Part shown: positions 20,629-25,524 of the stretch, piece by piece
Numbering within the stretch: position 1 is the first letter of the stretch
Layout of the letters: every line of letters starts with the position of its first letter
Assembly (NCBI RefSeq): GCF_029265695.1
Contig: NZ_JAJUHW010000027.1
Span: 1 to 41,683, forward strand
Direction of reading: 5' to 3'
Source: Gracilinema caldarium
GTDB lineage: Bacteria; Spirochaetota; Spirochaetia; Treponematales; Breznakiellaceae
DNA: 41,683 bases
Position numbers and translations under genes: made by a program
The notes under the pieces: model-generated
What the model was told of the DNA's origin: nothing
The model's input: the letters and a program-made list of their open reading frames with translations, nothing else
The model's database searches: none

Positions 20629-22254
20629 TTACTCTTCTTTTATTGTCCTATGACAGGCACGTATTGTCAACCTGACGACTGCTAAAAGCAAACTTAAGCC
20701 TGAGATACTTAAAAAAATCCAGGCAAGAAAATCCCCGTACTTTGTATACCAAGTTGTCTGGGAAAGTAAAGGGATATCCACGGTTAGTTGGACTTCGGTA
20801 AATGCGGGAGCCATGGCTATAATGCGCCCGTTTGGATCAATTGCACAGGTTTGTCCTGAGGCGGTAGATCTTACTACAGAACGACGATTTTCGATAGCCC
20901 TAAATACGGCCATGGTAGCATGCTGCATCTGAGAGGGGAGACTTTTTGACCACGCGTCATTGGTAAGGTTTACAATAAGCTCCGCTCCATTTTGAACAAA
21001 ACGCCTTGAAATATAGCCAAAAGTATCTTCAAAACAGATAGGGGTAGAAAATTTGATGCCATTAGCATCAAATACGGTCACTTCTGTTCCCTTTTTCCAG
21101 AAATGAGTATCTGCGTTGCGCAGGGCTTCGTACATAAATGGCAGTTGTTTTTTATAAGGAAAATGTTCCGTAAAAGGAACAAGATGCATTTTACGGTATA
21201 TTTGCTGTTCTTCTCCCTTTTTAAAAAGAATAGCAGCGTTGTAATCCACCTTATCCCAAATTCCTTCTTCTGTTACTTCCCTTCGGCCGTCATCATTACC
21301 AATCACATAGGGGATATCCTGGGTCGCCAGGAAGTCGAGCAAATCTTTAACCAGCTCATAGGATTCTTGATCGTCTCGGTATGTTTTATGCCAATAAATA
21401 CGTGGTACAAAGGCTGTTTCGGACCAAACCACCAGGTCAGGCTTTTGCTCTTGAGAAACGGCTTCGAGGGAAAGCCGTTTAAGGATGGCGAAATTTTGCC
21501 GGTAAGCGACTATTCCGCCCCGCCAGGGATCCGTATTGTGCTGAATCAATGCAACCCGAGCTTTCGGTGCCTGCTCATAAGACACGGGAGAGATAAATCC
21601 ATAGATAAGGCTTGCGATAAGAGCGCAAAACCAAAGACTCGGTGCAATCCACTCTTTTTTTATAAAGGAAAACCAATATTGTGTCGGATTTTTAATATTA
21701 TAAACTATCCAAGCTGCAAAGTATGTGGATGGGAACACTACCAGAGCTGATACAGCCCAAACCCCAAAAAGTGCGGAAATTTGAATAAGGGGCAACACTT
21801 GCCATTGGGAGTACCCGGTAATTCCATAGGCATAACCGAGAAAACCTTTCGTTCGCAAAAATTCATAGGAAAGCCATAAAAGCCACTGGACTATATAATA
21901 TTTTTTGGGAAACAGTCTTTCGGCAAGTTTAAGGAGGGGAAATAAAATAGCAAAGTAGGTTAAATATATACAGCCAACGATGACCCCGGCCAAAGGATGA
22001 AAGACACTGAGCCAGTAATTAAAAAGGCCATAGGCAGTATATCCATAGAGGGCACCCCAAAAAATCGATGCACCGAGGCCTATTCGCGAAATTGCTATAA
22101 AGACTGGCACATAGGCAACCCATGCTAAAAGAGAAATACCGTTTGTAACGAAAAGGTTTGGAAACGAAAGGGCAAATAAAACCGACGCTAGGAATATATA
22201 CAGAAAAGTAATGACATTATTTTTAAATCCATTCCCGTGGGAAGGCAGCATCAT
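20629..22254 (-). CDS. lnt: Apolipoprotein N-acyltransferase Lnt
   Basis: Lnt adds the third acyl chain to the N-terminal cysteine of lipoproteins in the inner membrane. The 541-residue protein has about six to eight N-terminal transmembrane helices, then a nitrilase-type periplasmic domain (from about residue 230) with catalytic Glu279 (VVWSETAF), Lys355 (YRKMHLVPFTEHFPY) and Cys407 (PICFED), and a last membrane helix before the C-terminus. Length and motifs match functional Lnt. The start ATGATG overlaps the HU stop. Together with the lipobox protein at 15690 this fits an organism that matures lipoproteins fully. Confidence 0.95.
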   Translation of the reverse strand: MMLPSHGNGFKNNVITFLYIFLASVLFALSFPNLFVTNGISLLAWVAYVPVFIAISRIGLGASIFWGALYGYTAYGLFNYWLSVFHPLAGVIVGCIYLTYFAILFPLLKLAERLFPKKYYIVQWLLWLSYEFLRTKGFLGYAYGITGYSQWQVLPLIQISALFGVWAVSALVVFPSTYFAAWIVYNIKNPTQYWFSFIKKEWIAPSLWFCALIASLIYGFISPVSYEQAPKARVALIQHNTDPWRGGIVAYRQNFAILKRLSLEAVSQEQKPDLVVWSETAFVPRIYWHKTYRDDQESYELVKDLLDFLATQDIPYVIGNDDGRREVTEEGIWDKVDYNAAILFKKGEEQQIYRKMHLVPFTEHFPYKKQLPFMYEALRNADTHFWKKGTEVTVFDANGIKFSTPICFEDTFGYISRRFVQNGAELIVNLTNDAWSKSLPSQMQHATMAVFRAIENRRSVVRSTASGQTCAIDPNGRIIAMAPAFTEVQLTVDIPLLSQTTWYTKYGDFLAWIFLSISGLSLLLAVVRLTIRACHRTIKEE

Positions 22255-22589
22255 GTTGCATCCCCACCTGCTCCTGGTTCGGCATTGAGAGAAGTAATAT
22301 CCCAGACACCTTTCTTTAATTCCTTGCCTGGGCGAAAAGCTGCCACACCGTGGGAAGAGACAGAGACGGTCGCTCCTGTTTTTGGGTTCCTTGCCTTTTG
22401 GCGTCCCTTACGTAGACGAATCTCGAAAGTGCCAAACCCGCGCAGTTCCACAACCCGGCCATCCATAAGTCCCTGTTTAATAACTTCCAACACCGTGTCG
22501 ATGACCCCATGGATTTCTTTTTTATCCATGCCAGTTTTTTGATACACTGAATCAATGATGTCGGCTTTTGTCAGCTTTGATCCGGCCAT
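22251..22589 (-). CDS. HU/IHF-family DNA-binding protein
   Basis: A 112-residue histone-like protein. Family sequences are LTKADIIDSVYQKTGM, the beta-arm entry GFGTFEIRLRKGRQKARNPKTG, and VAAFRPGKELK. HU/IHF proteins dimerise and bend DNA. It is slightly longer than usual (about 90-100 residues) because of a polar C-terminal tail (WDITSLNAEPGAGGDA). The ATG follows GGGGGA closely. As the first gene of HU-lnt-regulator-TPR-bactofilin-cinA its transcripts may begin at the rpsT promoter with a partial terminator between. HU and IHF cannot be separated with certainty. Confidence 0.92.
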   Translation of the reverse strand: MAGSKLTKADIIDSVYQKTGMDKKEIHGVIDTVLEVIKQGLMDGRVVELRGFGTFEIRLRKGRQKARNPKTGATVSVSSHGVAAFRPGKELKKGVWDITSLNAEPGAGGDAT

Positions 22590-22607
22590 CTTTCCCCCAG
22601 GTCATCT

Positions 22608-22637
22608 AAAAATTTGTGGCGCCCCCGCAGAGGGAGC
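22608..22637 (-). terminator. Weak attenuator-like hairpin between rpsT and HU
   Basis: Minus strand: GCTCCC (22637-22632), five-base loop, GGGGGC (22626-22621), then a T5 run seven bases later. A second small stem CCATT/AATGG lies just upstream. The separation of stem and T-run makes this weak; it may allow partial read-through into HU. Confidence 0.35.
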
Positions 22638-22669
22638 AGCCATTTTCATGAATGGAGCAGAGAATACGC

Positions 22670-22942
22670 TTATGCAGACTTAAAATTGTTAAACAAAATC
22701 TGCATGCGGGACTTTTTGCGAGCCGCAGCTTTTTTATTGATGATACCCTTCTGAGCAGCGCTGTCAAGCTTCTTGATCATTTCTTTCAAAGAAGCTTCTG
22801 CCTCGACAGTATCCTTTTTCTGAACCGCGGTTACAAATTTCTTTACACTGGTACGAACAGCGCTTTTTACCGCCTTATTGCGAATTCTGCGCTCTTCACT
22901 TTGCCGATGCCTTTTTTCGGCTGAAGACTGCTTTGTTGCCAA
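22670..22942 (-). CDS. rpsT: 30S ribosomal protein S20
   Basis: A 90-residue basic, helical protein of the small subunit, recognised by SSAEKRHRQSEERRIRNKAVKS near the start and GIINKKAAARKKSRM near the end. The start codon is TTG at 22942, with a G5 run seven bases upstream serving as the binding site. The E. coli rpsT gene also uses UUG, where it is part of autogenous control by S20, so the choice is likely meaningful. The leader is about 165 bases and contains three hairpins (22966-23093), two with perfect 15-16 base-pair stems, which is far more structure than a plain leader needs. Confidence 0.96.
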   Translation of the reverse strand: MATKQSSAEKRHRQSEERRIRNKAVKSAVRTSVKKFVTAVQKKDTVEAEASLKEMIKKLDSAAQKGIINKKAAARKKSRMQILFNNFKSA

Positions 22943-22965
22943 AGGAAAACCCCCACTAATCTGAG

Positions 22966-22998
22966 GCTCTTTTAAAACTCAGAGAGTTTTAAAAGAGC
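22966..22998. repeat. Perfect 15-bp inverted repeat in the rpsT leader
   Basis: GCTCTTTTAAAACTC (22966-22980) pairs with its complement at 22984-22998 across an AGA loop. It lies 24 bases before the rpsT start codon. It has no T-run on either side, so it is not a standard terminator. Confidence 0.93.
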
Positions 22999-23025
22999 TA
23001 CCTTAAAAATCCGCGATTTGGCGCA

Positions 23026-23054
23026 GCGATTGCGACGCAACCGCAAGCAATCGC
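23026..23054. repeat. GC-rich inverted repeat in the rpsT leader
   Basis: GCGATTGC (23026-23033) and GCAATCGC (23047-23054) flank a 13-base loop that offers an alternative pairing TTGCG/CGCAA (23030-23034 with 23042-23046). It lies between the two AT-cored palindromes. Confidence 0.85.
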
Positions 23055-23056
23055 AA

Positions 23057-23093
23057 AGCCAATTTTAAAAGTGACCGACTTTTAAAATTGGCT
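23057..23093. repeat. Perfect 16-bp inverted repeat in the rpsT leader
   Basis: AGCCAATTTTAAAAGT (23057-23072) and its complement (23078-23093) around the loop GACCG. It shares the TTTTAAAA core with the repeat at 22966-22998. On the minus strand it begins roughly 15 bases after the predicted transcription start. Confidence 0.93.
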
Positions 23094-23115
23094 CACCTAC
23101 AAATGTTTATCTGAT

Positions 23116-23144
23116 ACCCTATCAAATAAGTTCAATTCTGTCAA
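23116..23144 (-). promoter_or_regulatory. rpsT promoter
   Basis: TTGACA (23144-23139), 17-base spacer and TAGGGT (23121-23116) on the minus strand, immediately after the terminator of the zinc-ribbon gene. The -10 is imperfect, as is common for controlled promoters. Confidence 0.6.
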
Positions 23145-23145
23145 T

Positions 23146-23168
23146 GAAAAAGCCCCGATATCGGGGCC
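23146..23168 (-). terminator. Rho-independent terminator after the zinc-ribbon gene
   Basis: The perfect palindrome GCCCCGATATCGGGGC (23152-23167) is followed on the minus strand by T5. It separates the small gene from rpsT. Confidence 0.92.
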
Positions 23169-23193
23169 TCATGCAGCGACAGCTCATCCAACA

Positions 23194-23364
23194 TTATTTA
23201 AAGTCGGAGGGGCGCCGCTCTACCCGCTTGCACTTTTCGCATTCGGCAACATTTTTAACCTTGCCGTTTTCGAAAAGGGTCTTCATCTTTATTTCGCCAC
23301 CGCAGGAGCAGAAGAATTTCTGGGTTGCGCTGGTGGTACGAGCGTTCTTACTGGCCTGAGCCAT
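23194..23364 (-). CDS. Small zinc-ribbon protein, 56 residues
   Basis: A short gene with good support: ATG at 23364, AAGGAGA at ideal distance, its own promoter region and a strong terminator 26 bases after the stop. The protein begins MAQASKNART and has two cysteine pairs, FFCSCGGEIKMK and ECEKCKRVERR, spaced about 20 residues apart, as in a zinc ribbon. It is basic and resembles small ribosome- or RNA-associated zinc proteins in composition, but I do not recognise a named family. A GCCGG-TTTT-CCGGC hairpin (23379-23392) lies directly before the binding site and could control translation. It neighbours rpsT, which is compatible with a translation-related role. Confidence 0.82.
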   Translation of the reverse strand: MAQASKNARTTSATQKFFCSCGGEIKMKTLFENGKVKNVAECEKCKRVERRPSDFK

Positions 23365-23470
23365 GGGTTCATCTCCTTGCCGGAAAACCGGCCTTTATAT
23401 GCTATGTATGTGCATATCCCTAACGGATAATTCACAATCTCAAGGTAAGATACAATAGAGGATAAGCATA

Positions 23471-23485
23471 TGTCAACCATTGACA
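23471..23485. promoter_or_regulatory. Back-to-back -35 elements of divergent promoters
   Basis: TGTCAA-CCA-TTGACA: the left half is TTGACA for the minus-strand zinc-ribbon gene (possible -10 TATCTT at 23452-23447, 18-base spacer), the right half is TTGACA for the plus-strand Rrf2 gene (weak -10 near 23503-23508). Both -10 elements are poor, suggesting activator dependence or repression. Confidence 0.5.
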
Positions 23486-23548
23486 GACCTTGTGCACATA
23501 GGAAAAATAGTTTAACCTAACAGTCATTATTTCACAAAGAGGCTGTAT

Positions 23549-23995
23549 ATGCGCATAACGACTCGTGGGAGATACGCCTTGCGGGCGACCCTGGCATTAG
23601 CACGGCTCAGCATGGATGGTTCGCCGGTTTCTATCAGCCGTCTATCTGAGAAAGAACAAATTTCTTCCGTCTTTCTTGAGCAAATTTTTTTTAAACTTCG
23701 AAAAGCCGGCATAGTTGAATCCATTCGGGGCCCTGGCGGCGGTTTTAGAATGGCCAAACCCTTAGACCAGATTACAGCAAAAGAGGTCCTCGATGCGGCG
23801 GGTGAAGGTCTTATGCTTTCTCCCTGTGGAAAAATAAAAAAAAGCTGCAGCCACATGAATGACTGCATTTCCTTTGCCATCTGGGCAGAGGCAACAGAAT
23901 TGGTCAATAATTTCTTTGCCAATATGACATTAGCTTCGATTATTCAGAAATACGTAAAACAATTTGAAAGCGATTCTGCGAGCTGCGCTGACTAA
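23549..23995 (+). CDS. Rrf2-family iron-sulfur transcriptional regulator
   Basis: A 148-residue Rrf2 regulator, related to IscR and NsrR. The N-terminal winged helix starts with MRITTRGRYALRATLALA, and the recognition region includes ISSVFLEQIFFKLRKAGIVESIRGPGGGFRMAKP. Three cysteines, Cys93, Cys100 and Cys106 (SPCGKIKKSCSHMNDC), fit the cluster-binding pattern of the family, which senses iron-sulfur status, NO or oxygen. The start has AGAGG eight bases upstream. The membrane protein gene follows 17 bases after the stop and is probably its co-transcribed partner or target. Which cluster-related signal is sensed cannot be told. Confidence 0.92.
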   Translation: MRITTRGRYALRATLALARLSMDGSPVSISRLSEKEQISSVFLEQIFFKLRKAGIVESIRGPGGGFRMAKPLDQITAKEVLDAAGEGLMLSPCGKIKKSCSHMNDCISFAIWAEATELVNNFFANMTLASIIQKYVKQFESDSASCAD

Positions 23996-24012
23996 TACAG
24001 AGGTTAAGAACG

Positions 24013-25524
24013 ATGAAGCACAATAAAATTGATGAACGCTCTTATAAAAAAATAATAGATGTCCTTAAAACACAAAAACAGGGAATTACCGTGGCGGATA
24101 TTACCACAAAAACAGCCCTGCCCCTGGATAAGGTTAAGGAATTAGTTGTCGTCGCCTCCGATGAATATTCAGGCAGAATGGAGGTAACCGAATCGGGGGA
24201 AATCCTTTATTCCTTTCCCCGAGGTTTTAAAAGCAAATATCGGGGCCTTGGAGTAACATTAAAAAAGGTACTCCATGCGGTAAAACAGGGCGCAAAGGTT
24301 GTCGGGATGTGGCTTTTCAAAGCCTGGATCATGCTCATGCTCATCGGTTATTTTGTCCTCTTTATGGCCATAGCCCTCATAGCCCTGCTTGCGAGTGTGG
24401 CATTTTCGGCAGCCGGTTCCAGCGACAACCGTTCCAATTCCCGACGCAATGACGGGATCGGCGGTTTTTATTTGGTGAGCTATATTCTGGATCTCATAAT
24501 CCGAATATGGTTTTATTCAGAGCTGACTAAATCGATAGACCGATCTGGTTATGGCTACAATTATCGGGAAACAAAACCAAAGGGGAGACCGCTGCATCAT
24601 GCGGTTTTTTCCTTTGTTTTTGGCGATGGGGATCCCAATGCTGACTGGGAATCTCGTGAAAAAAAAGCCGTTATTTCCTATATCCAGGCAAACAAGGGCG
24701 TCATCAGCCTTCCAGAATTTATGATCCTGACCGGAGCAGCTCCCCAGGATGCGGAGCAAAAAATCACCCGTTACTGTGTCGAATTCGGCGGCATGCCCGA
24801 GGCAACTGAAGACGGAACTGTACTGTATCGATTTGAAGCCCTGCTCCTGCGAGCCGACACTAAGGATCGTTCTTTTAGCGGTTTATCCGCACCCATTAAA
24901 CGGCTCCATGTTTTTTCCCGCAACTCCAATAAAATGAATTCCTGGTTTGCTATTATTAACGGGGTAAACTTCGTTTTTGGCTCATATTTTTTGTTTTTCG
25001 CTAACACCCTTGGGCCGATCGTCTCTAACACGCAGGTTCGGGGATCAAGCTATCTGTACGCGATCGCATATGTACTTTTCAGCGGATTTTTTAATAATCC
25101 CCTCGCCGCCGTTACAATCATTTTAGGCTTTGTACCGGTGGTTTTCGCCATACTATTTTACCTTATTCCAGCCCTGCGATACATACAGCTTAATAAAACA
25201 AATGAACAAATAAAGCTTGAAAATCTGCGGAAAACCCTGTACCAGCAAGTTTGGGAACACCCCCAGCTCGTACATCTCGAAGATGTTAACCCCGCAGCAG
25301 AGGAATACCGTCCACAAGATTTTAAGCGCAAGACAGACCTGCTTATTAAAGAACTCGGTACCTATAGTATTCCTGAAGTGAAATTGTCTGATGATGGCAC
25401 AACCCTCTATTCTTTTCCTGAACTAGAACGGGAAAAGCTTGTGATTTATAAAATCCGTTCGCAGGTAGACGCTTCTCAATTTAAATTGGGAAACACCATT
25501 TTTGACAGCCACGATAAAACTTGA
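24013..25524 (+). CDS. Membrane protein with three repeated winged-helix-like modules
   Basis: A 503-residue protein that I do not recognise by name. It has three similar soluble modules: residues about 8-75, 215-280 and 415-475. Each has helices with a helix-turn-helix feel and ends in a beta-hairpin with the same sentence, EVTESGEILYSFP, EATEDGTVLYRFE and KLSDDGTTLYSFP. Between them are hydrophobic segments: about 98-135 (two helices), 315-345 and 370-400. A Ser/Asn/Arg-rich loop lies near 137-150. It is therefore a polytopic membrane protein with repeated cytoplasmic modules. It follows the Rrf2 gene by 17 bases with an AGAGG site. Role unknown; a link to iron-sulfur or redox signalling is only by context. 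Confidence 0.8.
   Translation: MKHNKIDERSYKKIIDVLKTQKQGITVADITTKTALPLDKVKELVVVASDEYSGRMEVTESGEILYSFPRGFKSKYRGLGVTLKKVLHAVKQGAKVVGMWLFKAWIMLMLIGYFVLFMAIALIALLASVAFSAAGSSDNRSNSRRNDGIGGFYLVSYILDLIIRIWFYSELTKSIDRSGYGYNYRETKPKGRPLHHAVFSFVFGDGDPNADWESREKKAVISYIQANKGVISLPEFMILTGAAPQDAEQKITRYCVEFGGMPEATEDGTVLYRFEALLLRADTKDRSFSGLSAPIKRLHVFSRNSNKMNSWFAIINGVNFVFGSYFLFFANTLGPIVSNTQVRGSSYLYAIAYVLFSGFFNNPLAAVTIILGFVPVVFAILFYLIPALRYIQLNKTNEQIKLENLRKTLYQQVWEHPQLVHLEDVNPAAEEYRPQDFKRKTDLLIKELGTYSIPEVKLSDDGTTLYSFPELEREKLVIYKIRSQVDASQFKLGNTIFDSHDKT

Follow-up and report, generated by a model that had tools for sequence, protein, structure and literature searches.

Hairpins in the rpsT leader of Gracilinema caldarium: very probably one copy of a short, MITE-like mobile element

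In the window analysed here (a stretch of 41,683 nucleotides of Gracilinema caldarium, contig NZ_JAJUHW010000027.1), three hairpins lie between the gene for ribosomal protein S20 and its likely promoter, and the question is whether they form a regulatory RNA or a piece of mobile DNA inserted in the leader. The second answer is very probably correct, that is, the hairpins are one copy of a short non-coding MITE-like mobile element in the rpsT 5' untranslated region. The features of the locus are the following:

22670..22942, minus strand: rpsT, ribosomal protein S20, TTG start (Pfam Ribosomal_S20p, E = 2.6e-25)
22959..22962, minus strand: downstream target-site duplication, AGAT in the rpsT sense
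22963..23094, minus strand: probable complete mobile element, 132 bp, 5'-GAGCC...GCCTC-3', in the same sense as rpsT
22966..22998, minus strand: hairpin 3, perfect 15-bp stem (22966-22980/22984-22998), 3-nt loop, with the terminal CTC next to it
23026..23054, minus strand: hairpin 2 (central), 8-bp stem GCGATTGC/GCAATCGC, arms 23026-23033/23047-23054, read from the sequence
23057..23093, minus strand: hairpin 1, perfect 16-bp stem (23057-23072/23078-23093), 5-nt loop
23095..23098, minus strand: upstream target-site duplication, AGGT in the rpsT sense (AGAT at the empty site of the closest sampled relative)
23116..23144, minus strand: likely rpsT promoter, TTGACA, 17 nt, TAGGGT, assigned by eye

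The rpsT leader and its empty site in congeners

The inverted repeats of 16, 8 and 15 bp that a sequence-only reading had described before the TTG were confirmed as perfect stems, and the core that it assigned to the two long ones, TTTTAAAA, is present in both hairpins 1 and 3. The same reading held that no stem has a terminator T-run, and the three leader stems are indeed not among the four terminator-like sites found by a terminator scan of the window. The hairpins thus stand as described, but the feature is larger than had been supposed, forming one 132-bp unit (22963-23094) with flanking duplications. The loop region of hairpin 1 reads AAAAGTCGGTCACTTTT in the window copy and AAAAGTCKGTYACTTTT in the consensus, while a repeat finder places the 8-bp central stem within a 16-nt inverted repeat (81%). 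The likely promoter, which a consensus promoter scan does not list, appears by eye to be common to the relatives with an empty site. A small cysteine-containing reading frame (MAQASKNARTTSATQKFFCSCGGEIK...) precedes rpsT at 23203-23364 of the window, on the minus strand; it is also seen, by eye, in many of the loci of relatives, and a Pfam search with its 54 residues returned no match.

A regulatory role, in which the hairpins would bind S20, switch their pairing and control the translation of rpsT, is suggested by several observations. The 176-nt leader has a strong predicted fold (-65.5 kcal/mol, against a mean of -43.1 for shuffled leaders; z = -6.26), and none of the 200 shuffled leaders folds as low. 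S20 autoregulation with a UUG start is believed to operate in E. coli, according to passages of a 2024 review (PMC10931766), and TTG is the nearest in-frame start of rpsT in 28 of the 30 loci compared here (L001-L030, with the window as L002; one has GTG and one ATG), although that review, in the passages concerned, describes UUG as typical only of several gammaproteobacterial families (PMC10931766). The gene and this start codon are common to the E. coli leader and that of the window, but the window hairpins are an insertion that related leaders do not have. In the other three genomes sampled from the genus (G001, G002 and G003; the genome of the window is G000), the leader lacks the stems, which is the outcome that the sequence-only reading had itself named as a refutation; the promoter, the TTG and the ribosome site GTGGGGGTTTTCC are all retained. 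A search of the 30 rpsT loci with model R1, described below, found the element within the leader at a single locus, that of the window, whereas the same structure occurs at many other places. The mean unpairing predicted for the ribosome site is 0.36 with the element and 0.39 without it, and Rfam (window 21500-24500 and 12 loci) returned sub-threshold matches only, with none at the gathering score. An S20-binding leader is, on this evidence, highly improbable.

The proposal of switchable pairings is similarly weakened by the comparison of copies. In most copies of the G000/G002 type, the central hairpin pairs an outer GCGATT/AATCGC with an inner GCGGTTGC/GCAACCGC, and the 8-bp central pairing of the window is due to one substitution (GCAATCGC in place of GCAACCGC), so that the switchable appearance is peculiar to the window copy and a few others.

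The empty site is most readily seen in G002, the closest sampled relative, whose S20 is 99% identical to that of the window. At its rpsT locus (L001), the site reads TTTGTAGATTAGTGG where the window has the insert; the leader is ACATTTGTAGATTAGTGG in G002 and ACATTTGT-AGGT-[GAGCC...GCCTC]-AGAT-TAGTGG in the window. The flanking duplication AGGT/AGAT is 4 bp long, with one mismatch (3/4 identical). Most simply, the insert arrived after the lineage split from its closest sampled relative.

Two other rpsT loci have R1 matches outside the leader. At L029, a copy cut by the contig end lies about 1.4 kb from rpsT. At L008 (1774-1944; genome G004), the interval from the preceding gene to rpsT contains two other strong hairpins, which are located upstream of a likely -10 recognized by eye (a consensus promoter scan of this locus found none); the R1 match is weak (E = 0.0012) and the loop motif is reverse-complemented relative to rpsT, so this is apparently a related element in the opposite orientation.

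Copies, target sites and spread across the order

The palindromes recur at many places in the genome, which the sequence-only reading had suggested looking for. A BLASTN search with the 132-bp unit recovered copies in G000, G002, G003, G017, G030 and G034, with many in G002, G003, G030 and G034, these being minimum counts, since 22 candidates were scored in the richest genomes. Model R1 was built from 39 copies contributed by five genomes (G000, G002, G017, G030 and G034), including the window copy itself, which it matches at 22963-23094 (E 6.8e-43). In G000, R1 returned at least 105 rows at E <= 0.1, with 150 of the 1,111 candidates scored, and many of these rows are the same palindromes read on the other strand; after overlapping and opposite-strand rows were merged by hand, at least 23 distinct places remain at E <= 1e-11. 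The congener G001, by contrast with these numbers, has at most one weak match (E 5.2e-5).

Relatives of the element were found in four or more families of the order. In a sample of 194 genomes of the order, with at most 15 candidates scored per genome, R1 matched 25 at E < 1e-20, from families f1, f2, f4 and f5, and 20 of these 25 did not feed the model. The number rises to 98 of the 194 at E <= 1e-3, which is an upper figure, because single hairpins alone can reach that value. Matches at 1e-6 were found in seven of the 247 genomes of a phylum sample, all from this same order, and the element was found in one order only within the samples searched. An exact-pattern scan of a species collection recovered 55 stretches, 54 of them titled Treponema, Spirochaetales or Spirochaetaceae; the remaining one, from Prevotella multiformis, was dropped, having a different context and 3/8 flank positions. 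No match to similar DNA was found in the viral-contig, phage and plasmid collections.

Both the ends of the element, GAG...CTC, and its three-hairpin layout are fixed. Hairpin 1, which 5'-GAG opens, has up to 17 pairs and a 5-nt loop; after it come the bipartite central hairpin, the spacer, hairpin 3 (15 pairs) and, last, CTC. Aligned three-hairpin copies measure 129-162 bp, and one two-hairpin form is 89 bp long. The terminal inverted repeats are imperfect (33 nt, 76% complementary; GAGCCAATTTCAAAAGTC against GAGGCTCTTTCAAAACTC) and follow the pattern GAGsC..TTTCAAAAsT, each repeat sitting in a hairpin of its own. The copies in G003 have other stem sequences in an unchanged layout, while those of family f3 (L266-L275) keep the loop motif and have new ends and no clear 4-bp duplication. 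In eight of these f3 loci (L266-L270 and L273-L275; genomes G052, G067, G086, G105 and G116), a relative with the same loop motif is bounded by GGGGCTGTC...GACAGCCCC; two of its copies, L273 and L274, have an A-run on one side and a T-run on the other, an arrangement resembling that of a terminator.

Insertion duplicates 4 bp of the target. A perfect 4-bp direct repeat flanks 52 of 90 copies and is missing from the other 38, in a set where no fewer than two loci appear twice and four pairs are orthologous; shuffled pairings of the flanks gave a mean of 1.8 and a maximum of 7. The ends used in this count were set by alignment, pattern or model, not by matching the flanks. Flank identity at the four duplication positions is 75, 67, 74 and 76 of 90, and no more than 39 of 90 outside them.

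Empty or near-empty sites were found in a congener for 12 of the 14 copies tested. When their flanks were joined, these 12 were matched over 111-126 query bases, spanning the junction, in one or more of G000-G003; the exceptions are L090, with a partial match of 81 bases, and L084, with no empty site. In 15 base-by-base comparisons (ten of the 14 copies, together with L068), at least seven are gapless around the junction and contain one target copy. The many copies, their target-site duplications and the empty sites bear out the other alternative of the sequence-only reading, a mobile palindromic repeat inserted in the leader.

Shortened and repeated forms were also seen. Single-hairpin forms (L164 and L185) and two-hairpin forms (L141 and L148) could be deletions in place; at the site of L083, the joined query of 120 bases extends over 163 bases in G000, while G001 and G003 have an empty site, which implies that a copy can be shortened where it stands. 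In G103 (L250, 191-472), two tandem copies in the same orientation have one AGCT duplication in common between them.

The copies beside genes have no clear orientation bias. Among 88 copies, the two adjoining genes were same and same in 20 cases, opposite and opposite in 18, same and opposite in 14, and opposite and same in nine, as counted with a crude ORF caller, whose ORFs overlap 22 of the 88 copies; 13 of those 22 lie in loci of about 0.5 kb. This bears on the tentative and somewhat doubtful possibility that the mobile element now alters rpsT expression, its long stems being cut by RNase III or changing the stability of the mRNA. Perfect 15- and 16-bp stems do lie in the untranslated region, and RNase III cuts Correia-containing transcripts, Neisseria mRNAs, according to parts of a review of MITEs (PMC10969869). 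Such units nevertheless adjoin genes in both orientations, and the accessibility of the ribosome site is predicted to be nearly unchanged by the element; taken together, these two points lead to the reading of the rpsT copy as an incidental insertion. The element would then be transcribed with rpsT but lie outside any S20 control circuit, and any influence on the gene, for example through cleavage of the long stems by RNase III, would be a by-product.

Stem conservation and the mobiliser

The outer stems change in sequence while their pairing is maintained. In 24 distinct sequences of hairpin 1, 95.3% of the cells are paired and 10 of the 17 pairs have changed on both sides (shuffle mean 4.5, none of 500 as high; 26-57% paired in slid versions), and in 22 sequences of hairpin 3, 96.1% are paired and 8 of the 15 pairs have changed on both sides (shuffle mean 4.3, two of 500 as high; 34-62% in slid versions). 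The sequences were picked for diversity, the covariation covers these outer two hairpins, and the counts of compensatory change carry no attached probability because related copies are not independent. The paired changes, together with the kept geometry, indicate that the shape is conserved while the sequence changes. Compensatory change across several families could mean that the element is not a passive repeat but is under selection as a structured RNA or a single strand; repair of palindromes or selection on the DNA would account equally well for the outer stems.

A structured RNA copied back into DNA, that is, an element spread through an RNA intermediate with its fold selected as RNA, would fit the compensatory change and fixed geometry across families. 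The single-sided changes, read in the sense orientation in hairpin 3 and in hairpin 1 with its pair 1 left out, comprise 46 A.C against 23 G.T mismatches, the reverse of what a sense RNA would be expected to leave, so that sense-strand RNA is not favoured. The 4-bp duplications also suit DNA insertion of the DDE type, and retro-copying is very unlikely.

The preferred reading, a MITE-like element, would have it move as DNA by means of a trans-acting transposase that cuts and joins the imperfect terminal inverted repeats with a 4-bp stagger; the defined ends, the imperfect terminal repeats and the 4-bp duplication suggest that this transposase would be of the DDE type. G000 (95.29% complete) gave no match to the Y1_Tnp, DDE_Tnp_1, ISAzo13, rve or IS1380 profiles, and G085 gave none to DDE_Tnp_1, ISAzo13, rve or IS1380, although genes of the rve or DDE_Tnp_1 type do occur in some other carriers (G091 and G034, for example). 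Over 16 genomes, a set that includes three with few or no copies (G001, G040 and G062), DDE_Tnp_1 was found in five, ISAzo13 in two, rve in 12 and IS1380 in three, and by these counts no transposase profile follows the element.

An autonomous copy sharing the ends of the element was not found in any of the loci examined. Five pairs of half-elements in G000, about 1.6-2.8 kb apart, were rejected as autonomous elements, the translated ORFs between them not being transposase-like by eye, as was a pair 2.7 kb apart in G002. When the loci were scanned for GAG-type ends that face each other at a distance of 0.8-3.5 kb, the only two rows came from the two neighbouring full copies of L149. An IS4-family gene adjoining a G003 copy and an IS1634-family gene in G060 were likewise set aside as mobilisers, each having unrelated terminal repeats of its own.

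The f3 copies end in GGGGCTGTCTCAAAAGTC, which presumably resembles the ends of IS1182-like insertion sequences. The shape and ends of L266-L275 would thus be in keeping with movement by an IS1182-like transposase. Some IS1182-family members are said, in portions of PMC5678879, to target palindromes. The same portions, however, describe new IS1272 insertions without target duplication (PMC5678879), against the 4 bp seen here; the f3 copies themselves have no clear 4-bp duplication, and no published text was found that links GGGGCTGTC with an inverted repeat and a transposase. An IS1182-like mobiliser is unlikely.

The GGTAG found just before hairpin 3 in many copies recalls REP/BIME repeats, which are moved by a RAYT (Y1) transposase. 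This tag varies between branches, however, as GTAG, GTTG or GAAG, 4-bp duplications are present, and the Y1 profile had no match in G000-G003, G017, G030 or G034, which makes movement by RAYT scarcely conceivable.

It is also imaginable, if rather unlikely, that the element represents a structure-coded mobile DNA of the whole order, in which a recombinase recognizes the three-hairpin shape, as a cruciform or single strand, rather than the sequence. Recognition by shape would leave the stems free to be rewritten by paired substitutions, with the loop motif, the spacing and the 4-bp insertion fixed. At least two carriers, G000 and G085, had no match to the transposase profiles used on them, and the enzyme may accordingly be something other than one of the common transposases of insertion sequences.

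Relation to known elements and meaning

The most fitting classification of the element is as a new MITE-like family, with three hairpins of which the outer two covary. It is short and non-coding, with imperfect terminal inverted repeats and a 4-bp target-site duplication, and it is multicopy with insertion polymorphism. Bacterial MITEs such as Correia/NEMIS in Neisseria, RUP and ERIC are also often intergenic and foldable when transcribed. The element differs from them in its three hairpins, in the position of each terminal repeat inside a complete hairpin of its own, in stems that turn over by compensatory change across families, and in that its partner insertion sequence was not found in the searches made here. 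It is similar to REP/BIME repeats with RAYT in its palindromes and in the GTAG before one hairpin in many copies, but differs from them in its 4-bp duplication, its defined ends and the lack of a Y1 match in the carriers tested, and it has no conserved GTAG/GGAG tag at the hairpin foot. The palindromic elements derived from IS200/IS605 similarly have hairpins near both ends, whereas the present element makes a target duplication and, again, its tested carriers have no Y1 match.

No description of the element was found among the titles and abstract openings of the literature or in the accessible parts of PMC10969869, PMC3733652 and PMC1590033. A word search of the MITE review, in the part of its text available, returned no occurrence of Treponema, Spirochaet, Leptospira or Borrelia (PMC10969869); CGTC-tagged palindromes are reported in Spirochaetes in a portion of PMC3733652, and one Treponema pallidum genome is surveyed in what was available of PMC1590033.

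Given this, what had been supposed to be a ribosomal switch turns out, very probably, to be a mobile element, for which no prior description was found in this literature, and the question that it poses is which enzyme moves it. The finding is also a warning that a spirochaete leader can owe strong, covarying hairpins to an insertion: the covariation test commonly applied to regulatory RNAs would here give a positive result for the wrong reason. The 23 or more places in the G. caldarium genome provide a natural insertion series for the effects of hairpins on gene expression.
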